Shown here: in pieces, positions 23,957 through 36,584 of the stretch
Layout: every line of letters starts with the position of its first letter
Numbering within the stretch: the stretch's first letter is position 1
From: Alphaproteobacteria bacterium
GTDB lineage: Bacteria > Pseudomonadota > Alphaproteobacteria > Rickettsiales > JABCZZ01
Length of the DNA stretch: 64,000 nucleotides
Assembly (NCBI GenBank): GCA_013288335.1
Contig: JABDCC010000003.1
Span: 25,978 to 89,977, forward strand
Reading direction: 5' to 3'
Notes under the pieces: model-generated
Told to the model about the DNA's origin: nothing
What the model saw: the letters and a program-made list of their open reading frames with translations, nothing else
The model's database searches: none
Program-made: the position numbers and the translations under genes

Positions 23957-24034
23957 TAGAAGTCGGGAAATCGAGAATTCCAGAAATAGCAATCTTTCTT
24001 GTATTCCCTTTTTCCCGTATTCTCCGCTTCTTGT
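23957..24034. repeat. Imperfect palindromic element downstream of anmK (copy B)
   Basis: The left arm AGAAGTCGGGAAATCGAGAA and the right arm, read in reverse complement as AGAAGCGGAGAATACGGGAA, make an imperfect palindrome of about 78 bases. The right arm matches the insertion inside uup (AGAAG, GAGAATACG, GGGAA in register). It sits just upstream of the Pho-box-like promoter and probably does not encode anything. Confidence 0.5.
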
Positions 24035-24097
24035 CACAAAAGTTTCATTAAAACTTCATAAAACCGTAATAATTCTGGTAGAACGGCGTGTTACAAT
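24032..24097 (+). promoter_or_regulatory. Pho-box-like promoter of the 24194 gene
   Basis: Four six-base repeats in exact 11-bp phase are TGTCAC (24032), TTTCAT (24043), CTTCAT (24054) and CGTAAT (24065), followed after 21 bases by a -10 element TACAAT (24092-24097). The same architecture and spacing occur upstream of the small membrane protein gene at 35677. Direct repeats with 11-bp phasing are the PhoB (OmpR-family) pattern; assignment to PhoB is inference. Confidence 0.65.
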
Positions 24098-24193
24098 AAC
24101 AGCTTATTTTAGTATTCAGACTATCGCATACTTACACAAGTATCTAGCCTCAATTTGTAACAAATTAAATTTAATATATTAAAACTTAAGAAC

Positions 24194-24466
24194 ATGAAAA
24201 AAGAAAAATTTTTTGTAACTGAAAAAAGAGAGGAAAAAAAAGGAATAATTGATTGGGAATATCGCAGAAAATTGTTTGTTATCGCTGTCATTACCGCAAT
24301 TATCATGTGTGCAGCCATTGACTATTTTGTATGGCCATATTTAAGTGCTAAAGATCGCATTCAGACAATAATATTTGAAATTGTTTGTGTTGTAGCTTTT
24401 ACGTTTGCACTTAGGGCGGCCATCAAAAGATTCAGAAAAGAAGCAGGTGATTTAGGTATCCATTAA
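24194..24466 (+). CDS. Small two-TM membrane protein, unknown function
   Basis: This 90-aa protein has a basic, Lys/Glu-rich N-terminus followed by two predicted TM helices (KLFVIAVITAIIMCAAIDYFVW and TIIFEIVCVVAFTFALRAA) and a basic C-terminal tail, so both ends are likely cytoplasmic. I do not recognise the family. It stands alone between a Pho-box-like promoter and a strong terminator, so it is a single-gene unit. The leader from the expected start of transcription to the ATG is about 90 bases. The promoter twin at 35.7 kb also drives a tiny two-TM protein, which suggests a shared physiological response. Confidence 0.75.
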   Translation: MKKEKFFVTEKREEKKGIIDWEYRRKLFVIAVITAIIMCAAIDYFVWPYLSAKDRIQTIIFEIVCVVAFTFALRAAIKRFRKEAGDLGIH

Positions 24467-24492: not shown

Positions 24493-24521
24493 AAGTCCTG
24501 CCCTCGGGTGGGACTTTTTTT
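24493..24521 (+). terminator. Rho-independent terminator after the 24194 gene
   Basis: The stem AAGTCC...GGACTT, with an inner CCC/GGG pairing, ends in a run of T. It lies 27 bases past the stop, and the convergent PAP2 gene ends just beyond it. Confidence 0.88.
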
Positions 24522-29469: not shown

Positions 29470-29513
29470 ATTCATCGCCTCGTCATAAAACTGTAACATT
29501 TCTATGCTATTAT
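29470..29513 (+). promoter_or_regulatory. Possible third Pho-box-like promoter, upstream of the 29567 gene
   Basis: ATTCAT (29470) and CGTCAT (29481) are 11 bp apart, and the second ends exactly 21 bases before TATTAT (29508-29513), the same geometry as at 24.0 and 35.8 kb. The earlier repeats are poor (AATAAT at 29459), so this is weaker than the other two. Confidence 0.4.
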
Positions 29514-29566: not shown

Positions 29567-30112
29567 ATGCTTATGCAGCAAAGCGATATTATACGTGATT
29601 TTATTAGGTATTTAGTCAACAGCACCGACAATCATTTATTTCGTTTTAACGAAAGCCTGTATAGCGATTATATAATGCGAACCGATGATTATTTGCAAAA
29701 AACATTACGCTCCTCGTTTGGGCTAAAACCGAATTTCAGCAACTATCTTACTGATGAACAAAAAACACTCATCGACAAAAAACAATTGCTCGAGATTACT
29801 TTTCATGTGGATAGGTTAGATGCAGGTGTTATAAAAACCCATTTAAAAGAACTTGGCCTTACGGGAATTACTTACAGTATAGCATCCGTAGAAAATATTC
29901 GGGTTTTTAATAAAGATCACTCAGATTATACCGATAAAGTTCGGTTAAAAATGCTCATCGATACTCGCCAGGAAAATTTTGAGAAAAATATCGAAAATCT
30001 AAAGGAAAGAGCCAAAGCGGCTAAAGAACTAAATCCTAAACGCGGCAGACATCTTAGGACCAGCAGCATTAAGCCGGATGATATCCGCAAAGATGATATT
30101 TACATCTCTTAA
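29567..30112 (+). CDS. Unrecognised 181-aa protein
   Basis: I do not recognise this family. It is soluble and charged, with helical N-terminus (SDIIRDFIRYLVNSTDNHLF), a central segment with alternating hydrophobics (LLEITFHVDRLDAGVIKTHLKELGLTGITYSIA) and a long Lys/Glu helix followed by a basic tail (NPKRGRHLRTSS) that might bind nucleic acid. The start could be either ATG (29567 or 29573); GGA precedes both. It ends 4 bases into the convergent secD. A possible phosphate-type promoter lies upstream. Confidence 0.7.
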   Translation: MLMQQSDIIRDFIRYLVNSTDNHLFRFNESLYSDYIMRTDDYLQKTLRSSFGLKPNFSNYLTDEQKTLIDKKQLLEITFHVDRLDAGVIKTHLKELGLTGITYSIASVENIRVFNKDHSDYTDKVRLKMLIDTRQENFEKNIENLKERAKAAKELNPKRGRHLRTSSIKPDDIRKDDIYIS

Positions 30113-35424: not shown

Positions 35425-35475
35425 AAAAAAATCCCCTGACTGATTTTAGATAACCAAATATGGTTAAGTCAGGGG
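35425..35475 (-). terminator. Terminator of the small membrane protein gene at 35486-35677
   Basis: CCCCTGACT (35433-35441) pairs with AGTCAGGGG (35467-35475), with an inner TAACCA/TGGTTA stem. The A-run at 35425-35431 becomes a T-tract on the minus strand, so it terminates leftward transcription. It shows no T-tract for the ugd direction. Confidence 0.85.
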
Positions 35476-35485
35476 TATTCCTACT

Positions 35486-35677
35486 TTAGGGAAATTCTTT
35501 TTGCTTGCGCATTTTGGCAATTGTATCACCAATTCCAATGAATATGATGATAACGGCAGCCACAAGACAAAAATCTCTAAACCCCAGGAAATAGATGAGC
35601 AGACTTATTATAAATGCAATAAGAGCTACAAATAATGCTATTCCCTTCTTTTCGTTCGTGTTTAATTTTTTCTTCAT
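35486..35677 (-). CDS. Tiny two-TM membrane protein, unknown function
   Basis: This 63-aa protein has a Lys-rich N-terminus, two TM helices (GIALFVALIAFIISLLIYFLG and FCLVAAVIIIFIGIGDTIA) and a basic C-terminus, so it is an inner-membrane hairpin. I do not recognise the family. It is a single-gene unit with its own promoter and terminator. The promoter is a near copy of that upstream of the 24194 gene, which also encodes a small two-TM protein with basic ends. Co-regulation is therefore probable, even though the two proteins are not obviously homologous. Confidence 0.75.
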   Translation of the reverse strand: MKKKLNTNEKKGIALFVALIAFIISLLIYFLGFRDFCLVAAVIIIFIGIGDTIAKMRKQKEFP

Positions 35678-35757
35678 GTCGATAAGGTTTTAGGTACTAA
35701 AAAATAGTTTAGGTATTAGTTTATTTGTGAATTCTAGATACAAAATTTAGAACGCCT

Positions 35758-35823
35758 ATTATAGCAGAATAGCACCGTAATATTATGACGGGTTTATGAA
35801 GATTTAATGAAAGTTTTATTACA
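35758..35823 (-). promoter_or_regulatory. Pho-box-like promoter of the 35677 gene
   Basis: On the minus strand the 11-bp-phased repeats are TGTAAT, TTTCAT, CTTCAT and CGTCAT (the last at 35785-35790), then exactly 21 bases, then a consensus -10 TATAAT (35758-35763). The order, phasing and spacing are identical to the promoter at 24032-24097. Confidence 0.7.
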
Positions 35824-35834
35824 AGCAGGGTATC

Positions 35835-36584
35835 TTATTGAGTTTCAGTAGGTTTCTTCTTCGATTTTCTATTGCGCTTGAGTGCGATCATCGAGGAAAA
35901 ATGCCCCATAGGAACGGTTTCTTCCCTTTCGGGTTCCGCTGATTCTGCTCGCTCTGGCCTGTTATACTCATTGAGCTTACATTCGACAGTGAATCCCCCA
36001 CCCTGCACGTGCTTTATTTCCAGTACATATTTCTTAATCGGATTTTTGGGGTCTTCGCTGCGACTAAAAACCATAATATAAAGTTTATTGCTGGCCGGAA
36101 TCGTAGTCTCAGGATATTCCAGATGCAGGCTTTGCAACGCATCATTTACTTCTTCAATGGTAGCATATTGGTGCCCATTTTTCATAGCACGCAAAATCGG
36201 ATGACCCCAGTTCGGACAGCGTGCTTTCTGGCGTTTGCGCATTGGGTGAAATCTTGGTTCAGTCACTAGTTTATTGGCAACCAAAGTAAAAAGCCCATCA
36301 CTGGCTTTCTCAATCTTTATATGGCAAAAATTTCCAATAGCACCTTTATGGGCTTCTTCTTCGCTCACGTCGTAATGGCGAATCCAGAGGATGAGACTTG
36401 GTATTTCGGGATTTTCTTCCTGCTCGCTCGCCACCGTGAATAAACGCTTGAAGGAATCGAGTTTTTTGGTTGCCTGAAAAAGAGTGTCAAAATGATAGGC
36501 ACCGTTAATTACAGCCGCAATATGCAGATGTGCCGCACTGGCGTATCGGATTCTGGGAGTTTCTTCGCTGCTTTTGCTGCTCAT
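35835..36584 (-). CDS. Unrecognised 249-aa protein
   Basis: I do not recognise this family. It is soluble, with an N-terminal alpha/beta region (YASAAHLHIAAVINGAYHFDTLFQA), a conserved-looking central segment with MRKRQKARCPNWGHP, and a second beta-rich half (KLYIMVFSRSEDPKNPIKKYVLEIKHV). The C-terminus is basic and disordered (KRNRKSKKKPTETQ), possibly for nucleic-acid or ribosome contact. AGGA precedes the ATG. It is monocistronic. It lies at the boundary between the housekeeping segment and the glycan locus. Confidence 0.72.
   Translation of the reverse strand: MSSKSSEETPRIRYASAAHLHIAAVINGAYHFDTLFQATKKLDSFKRLFTVASEQEENPEIPSLILWIRHYDVSEEEAHKGAIGNFCHIKIEKASDGLFTLVANKLVTEPRFHPMRKRQKARCPNWGHPILRAMKNGHQYATIEEVNDALQSLHLEYPETTIPASNKLYIMVFSRSEDPKNPIKKYVLEIKHVQGGGFTVECKLNEYNRPERAESAEPEREETVPMGHFSSMIALKRNRKSKKKPTETQ

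Follow-up and report, generated by a model that had tools for sequence, protein, structure and literature searches.

Near-identical direct-repeat promoters of tiny membrane-protein genes in a Rickettsiales genome and their probable place in an OmpR/PhoB-family regulon with secretion genes

Two genes for tiny two-transmembrane (two-TM) proteins, located on opposite strands of a 64,000-nucleotide stretch of Rickettsiales DNA (the window), have promoters that are almost the same. Why should such promoters precede unrelated proteins, and what kind of regulator would recognize them? The original prediction saw PhoB-family direct-repeat sites replacing a -35 box and suggested a small stress-induced regulon of membrane proteins, possibly responding to phosphate.

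On the forward strand, the promoter of the 90-aa gene (24032-24070) reads TGTCAC-AAAAG-TTTCAT-TAAAA-CTTCAT-AAAAC-CGTAAT, followed by 21 bases and then TACAAT (24092-24097). The promoter of the 63-aa gene on the minus strand (35823-35785) reads TGTAAT-AAAAC-TTTCAT-TAAAT-CTTCAT-AAACC-CGTCAT, again followed by 21 bases and then TATAAT, and both -10 boxes are of the extended (TGn-TATAAT) type. Thus, the predicted hexamers, 11-bp phase, 21-base gap and -10 box were all in place; the 39-base pattern with at most 3 mismatches had 2 matches in the window and 0 in 100 dinucleotide shuffles. The two proteins were dissimilar (17% identity), and each gene was indeed a single unit with its own terminator hairpin and two TM segments (Table 1).

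The genome (1.47 Mb in 67 contigs, 66.9% complete; its site counts refer to this incomplete assembly) was scanned with an iterated 43-position matrix, and the reversed genome and column-permuted matrices served as controls. Seven further near-identical promoters were found. The resulting nine sites, designated class A, scored 60-69 bits, the next-best hit scored 43.7 bits, and the controls produced nothing above 8 bits. Each array had four hexamers and a gap of 21-22 bp to the -10 box, with no hexamer at the fifth position. In the alignment of the nine promoters, 33 of 93 columns were invariant, the extended -10 core among them; conservation centred on the hexamers and the -10 box and did not extend in like measure to the later leader or the ORFs.

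Table 1. Promoter elements and genes in the window, and class A sites across the genome
Feature	Location	Strand	Details
Class A array of 90-aa gene	24032..24074	+	4 hexamers in 11-bp phase (24032-37, 24043-48, 24054-59, 24065-70) and conserved AATT
Extended -10	24089..24097	+	TGT-TACAAT
Leader	24098..24193	+	96 nt, G-poor, without Shine-Dalgarno
Two-TM protein	24194..24466	+	90 aa; no Pfam family above cut-off
Intrinsic terminator-like hairpin of 90-aa gene	24494..24521	+	hairpin and T run; from sequence
Class B promoter	29470..29513	+	hexamers 29470-75, 29481-86, 29492-97; 10-bp gap; TGC-TATTAT
Protein behind the class B promoter	29567..30112	+	181 aa; no assigned function
Class A array of 63-aa gene	35781..35823	-	4 hexamers in 11-bp phase
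Extended -10	35758..35766	-	TGC-TATAAT
Leader	35678..35757	-	80 nt, contains GTATCTAG element, G-poor, without Shine-Dalgarno
Two-TM protein	35486..35677	-	63 aa; no Pfam family above cut-off
Intrinsic terminator-like hairpin of 63-aa gene	35425..35476	-	hairpin and T run; from sequence
Class A site	C3:50009	+	window 24032; ORF 90 aa
Class A site	C3:61800	-	window 35823; ORF 63 aa
Class A site	C2:7230	-	ORF 41 aa
Class A site	C8:5866	+	ORF 72 aa
Class A site	C9:35584	-	ORF 85 aa
Class A site	C9:36070	-	ORF 86 aa
Class A site	C9:39304	-	ORF 93 aa
Class A site	C17:25003	-	ORF 121 aa
Class A site	C19:19751	-	ORF 91 aa

When TGnTATAnT was sought together with a pair of hexamers in 11-bp phase, a wider promoter type emerged, with about 60 sites in the genome and, at an equal score, 4 in its reversed version. 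When the spacing from the box pair to the extended -10 was left free, peaks appeared at 10 bp (36 real versus 0 reversed), 21/22 bp (27 versus 0), 32 bp (10 versus 0) and 43 bp (9 versus 0), and all other gaps were near background. Such a series is characteristic of OmpR-family sites arrayed head to tail; many of the 21/22-bp cases simply had one extra hexamer in between. About 45 sites, designated class B, had YKTMAY hexamers in 11-bp phase with the last hexamer 10 bp before the extended -10. Class A is a branch of this promoter type, its array standing one helical turn further upstream than that of class B, and the two classes together comprised about 50 sites.

The genes behind the class B promoters pointed to secretion. 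Namely, the promoter at C18:17977 preceded the TrbC/VirB2 pilin gene that heads a virB operon, with TrbL/VirB6 and VirB8 next, and the one at C19:8867 adjoined VirB8/VirB9 genes; virB8 was duplicated, in keeping with Rickettsiales. Further targets encoded a peptidoglycan-binding protein, a glycosyltransferase and a protein with a weak match to ankyrin, but most were orphans of up to 1738 aa. A Pfam match (E<=0.01) was absent from 25 of 30 class B proteins versus 3 of 20 random ORFs (24 drawn, 20 scanned; p=2e-6). When the class B model was searched in the complete genome of a same-genus relative (G002), the orthologous virB2 was found with the same promoter type, together with many orphans. 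Since class B drives virB2, other type IV secretion (T4SS) genes and many orphans, and was found before virB2 and many orphans in this relative too, a secretion/host-interaction regulon was the best reading. The orphans may accordingly include effectors, with the reservation that a missing Pfam match is no proof of an effector role. The gap-10 pattern was present in 45 of 88 relatives with up to 16 sites per genome, versus almost none for the reversed pattern, and thus recurred across deep Rickettsiales lineages. Also on contig C18, an 898-aa protein (L086, 1037-3733) encoded upstream of virB8 combined a VirB2/TrbC-like N-terminus with a TrbL/VirB6 domain.

The anatomy, phasing, membership and conservation pattern of these promoters were observed directly, and from them we infer how they would be bound and activated. 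Dimers of an OmpR/PhoB-family response regulator would bind the head-to-tail YKTMAY hexamers beside the extended -10, and the bound regulator would activate transcription without a -35 box. From class B sites, with their Pho-box-like spacing, it would drive virB2, other T4SS genes and many orphans; at class A sites, uniform monocistronic shells would express lineage-specific, mostly membrane-embedded micro-proteins alongside this programme, which would most likely serve secretion and host interaction. The class A products would then most likely be membrane accessories co-expressed with it. We consider it probable that both window sites belong to one such regulon together with T4SS genes, orphans and tiny proteins. 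The idea of PhoB/OmpR-type direct repeats in place of a -35 box gained support. The proposed regulon of small membrane proteins held in that nine units exist, seven of them with TM segments, but not as a stand-alone system: these units make up one branch of a promoter class with about 50 sites, whose other targets include T4SS genes and genes for large orphans.

Among known systems, ChvI, BvrR and BatR exert OmpR-family control over VirB T4SS in Alphaproteobacteria. Their sites differ from those described here, and no ChvI-like regulator was identified in this analysis. In Legionella and Coxiella, Dot/Icm effectors are under the control of the OmpR-family regulators PmrA and CpxR (PMC2701608, citing Zusman 2007 and Altman 2008). 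As in those regulons, an OmpR-family regulator would govern secretion genes and effector-like orphans here, and its site could be used to predict effectors. Unlike them, the present case involves VirB-type secretion, a different bacterial order and nine tiny, mostly membrane proteins. To our knowledge, the substrates of VirB-type secretion in early-branching Rickettsiales are largely unknown. A promoter signature common to virB2 and dozens of orphans allows candidate substrates to be listed from sequence alone and provides a handle for finding the regulator.

The class A units themselves were uniform. Each promoter was followed by a single short ORF of 41-121 aa with an ATG start, a TAA stop and a terminator-like hairpin at the 3' side (9/9). 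The leaders were 75-111 nt long with 7% G; none of the nine had a Shine-Dalgarno match of at least 4 bases, versus 20 of 41 class B genes, and in eight of them a short element, GTAT or GTAC, lay 14-17 nt downstream of the -10 box. Seven products had TM segments, and no clear one was found in the 41-aa (C2) and 121-aa (C17) proteins. The Pfam scan, which covered the class A proteins of 41, 63, 90, 91, 93 and 121 aa, returned no family above cut-off. A common homologous family was considered and rejected, because the other small proteins shared an unconvincing 16-32% identity with the 90-aa protein.

Class A had no match in any of the order's 343 other genomes that were searched (344 with its own), the pattern had no exact match in GTDB or viral contigs beyond its own genome, and no close relatives of the 90-aa protein were found in 85,000 genomes. 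A phage origin received no support. In the complete sister genome G002, the unit was missing at all three loci checked: both neighbouring genes were adjacent at the C2 locus, and the 3' sides of the anmK and acpS loci lacked it. Therefore, either this lineage gained the units or the sister species lost them.

Such a distribution is what one would expect if a promoter-leader-terminator shell had spread as a duplicated cassette, with its ORFs replaced or born de novo, in which case the promoter identity would reflect recent copying and not regulation. Leaders that share the GTAT element while the proteins are dissimilar fit this scenario as well as the restriction to one genome of 344 and the three empty loci do. 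However, conservation was focused on the hexamers and the -10 box, neither terminal repeats nor target duplications were seen, and class B promoters, although unrelated in the rest of their sequence, followed the same hexamer logic. We take this alternative seriously while leaning against it as a full account; it is compatible with the OmpR/PhoB-family regulon, as gene birth in copied promoter shells. Joining both lines, we propose as a possibility, though not the likeliest one, that a single species has its own repertoire of nine or more micro-proteins, most of them membrane-embedded, expressed from a shared high-affinity promoter shell, possibly as de novo births in copied shells with a Shine-Dalgarno-free, G-depleted start, and that this set is wired into a T4SS/host-interaction regulon of deep-branching Rickettsiales. 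The nine units are a compact example of a species-specific family that is defined by its promoter and not by the sequences of its proteins, and through them the origin of new small membrane genes can be put to the test.

Which member of the OmpR family might act on these promoters? Six such regulators were encoded in the assembly: a CopR-like protein, KdpE, a KdpE-like protein, CtrA, a short protein, and one that is truncated at a contig end next to an EnvZ-like kinase. In the 66.9% complete assembly, a PhoR-like kinase was present and neither PhoB nor PhoU was found; PhoB was present in both same-genus genomes. Among 64 near-complete genomes, at least two pattern matches occurred in 20 of 32 genomes with PhoB versus 2 of 32 without it (p=3e-6, phylogeny ignored), and the association weakened among genomes of similar size (p=0.03, phylogeny likewise ignored). 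Co-occurrence was weaker for CtrA (p=0.14) and EnvZ (p=0.02). In line with the PhoB association, Ca. Aquarickettsia has PhoR-PhoB and Rickettsia species do not (PMC6863919). Upstream of response-regulator or phoB genes, no autoregulation boxes stood clearly above background. On balance, PhoB appeared to be the best candidate, and we give it about an even chance of being the regulator.

CtrA also belongs to the OmpR family and has the consensus TTAA-N7-TTAA. Some class B boxes had the form CTTAAC-N5-CTTAAC and were indistinguishable from CtrA boxes (contig C4, 59082; contig C34, 2523), so that a second regulator may share some class B targets; the 11-bp phase is another likeness to the CtrA regulon. 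Control by CtrA or OmpR instead of PhoB would agree with these boxes and with the presence in the assembly of both CtrA and an EnvZ-like kinase with its response regulator. Nevertheless, we regard it as doubtful. Across the order, the pattern neither required CtrA nor always accompanied it: many genomes with CtrA lacked the pattern, and G060 (100% complete) had six pattern matches and no match to CtrA. Similarly, many genomes with EnvZ lacked the pattern, and EnvZ was not found in G047, which had three matches.

PhoB as the favoured candidate does not make the regulon a phosphate regulon. In the Pho box (E. coli phoA and pstS, and alphaproteobacterial forms), as here, head-to-tail TGTCAY-type hexamers in 11-bp phase replace the -35 box, and the 10-bp gap to the -10 box in the phoA type is matched by class B. 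Unlike in the Pho box, the second half-site here was often GTAAY or CTTAAC, the TGn extended -10 was almost always kept, and the class A array ended 21-22 bp upstream. A strong gap-10 promoter at C6:3707 headed a gene for a 45-aa single-TM protein (L040, 3707-3913) directly upstream of phoR-pstC-pstA; it stood 348 bp before phoR and was the sole site near phoR in the genome. No comparable box was found upstream of the phoR orthologues in G001, G002, G008, G022, G028 and G078, and no clear box was found in the phoB upstream regions of twelve genomes; the phosphate genes compared were phoR and phoB. Since these two genes of relatives lacked a clear box, we did not grant membership in a phosphate regulon, and this part of the original prediction gained no support. 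Low phosphate raises virulence gene expression in Agrobacterium (PMC4018554). A PhoB regulon of the classical kind, induced by phosphate starvation and using the small membrane proteins under phosphate stress, could draw on the Pho-box-like half-sites and gap, on the C6:3707 promoter and on the tracking of PhoB by the pattern across the order. It seems unlikely given phoR and phoB genes without a clear box and class B targets that are T4SS and orphan genes rather than phosphate genes.

That the class A units are regulatory RNAs with incidental ORFs is very improbable: short monocistronic units with strong promoters, terminators and no Shine-Dalgarno would suit such RNAs, but in every one of the nine the leader is followed by an ORF that starts with ATG and stops with TAA immediately ahead of the terminator, and clear TM segments are encoded by seven of them.

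Two minor observations concern the surroundings of the window sites. Imperfect hairpin repeats (GAATACGGGAA...TTCCCGTATTC) occurred at window positions 23959-24023 and at C6:62697, C9:36111, C9:39369, C14:16085 and C21:20782. In three cases the repeat lay just upstream of a class A promoter; it occurs at other loci too and thus does not define the units, and a mobile element carrying class A was rejected. Finally, the 249-aa protein encoded directly upstream of the 63-aa gene (window 35835-36584) had a 38% identical homologue in G002 (L212) with a class B promoter.
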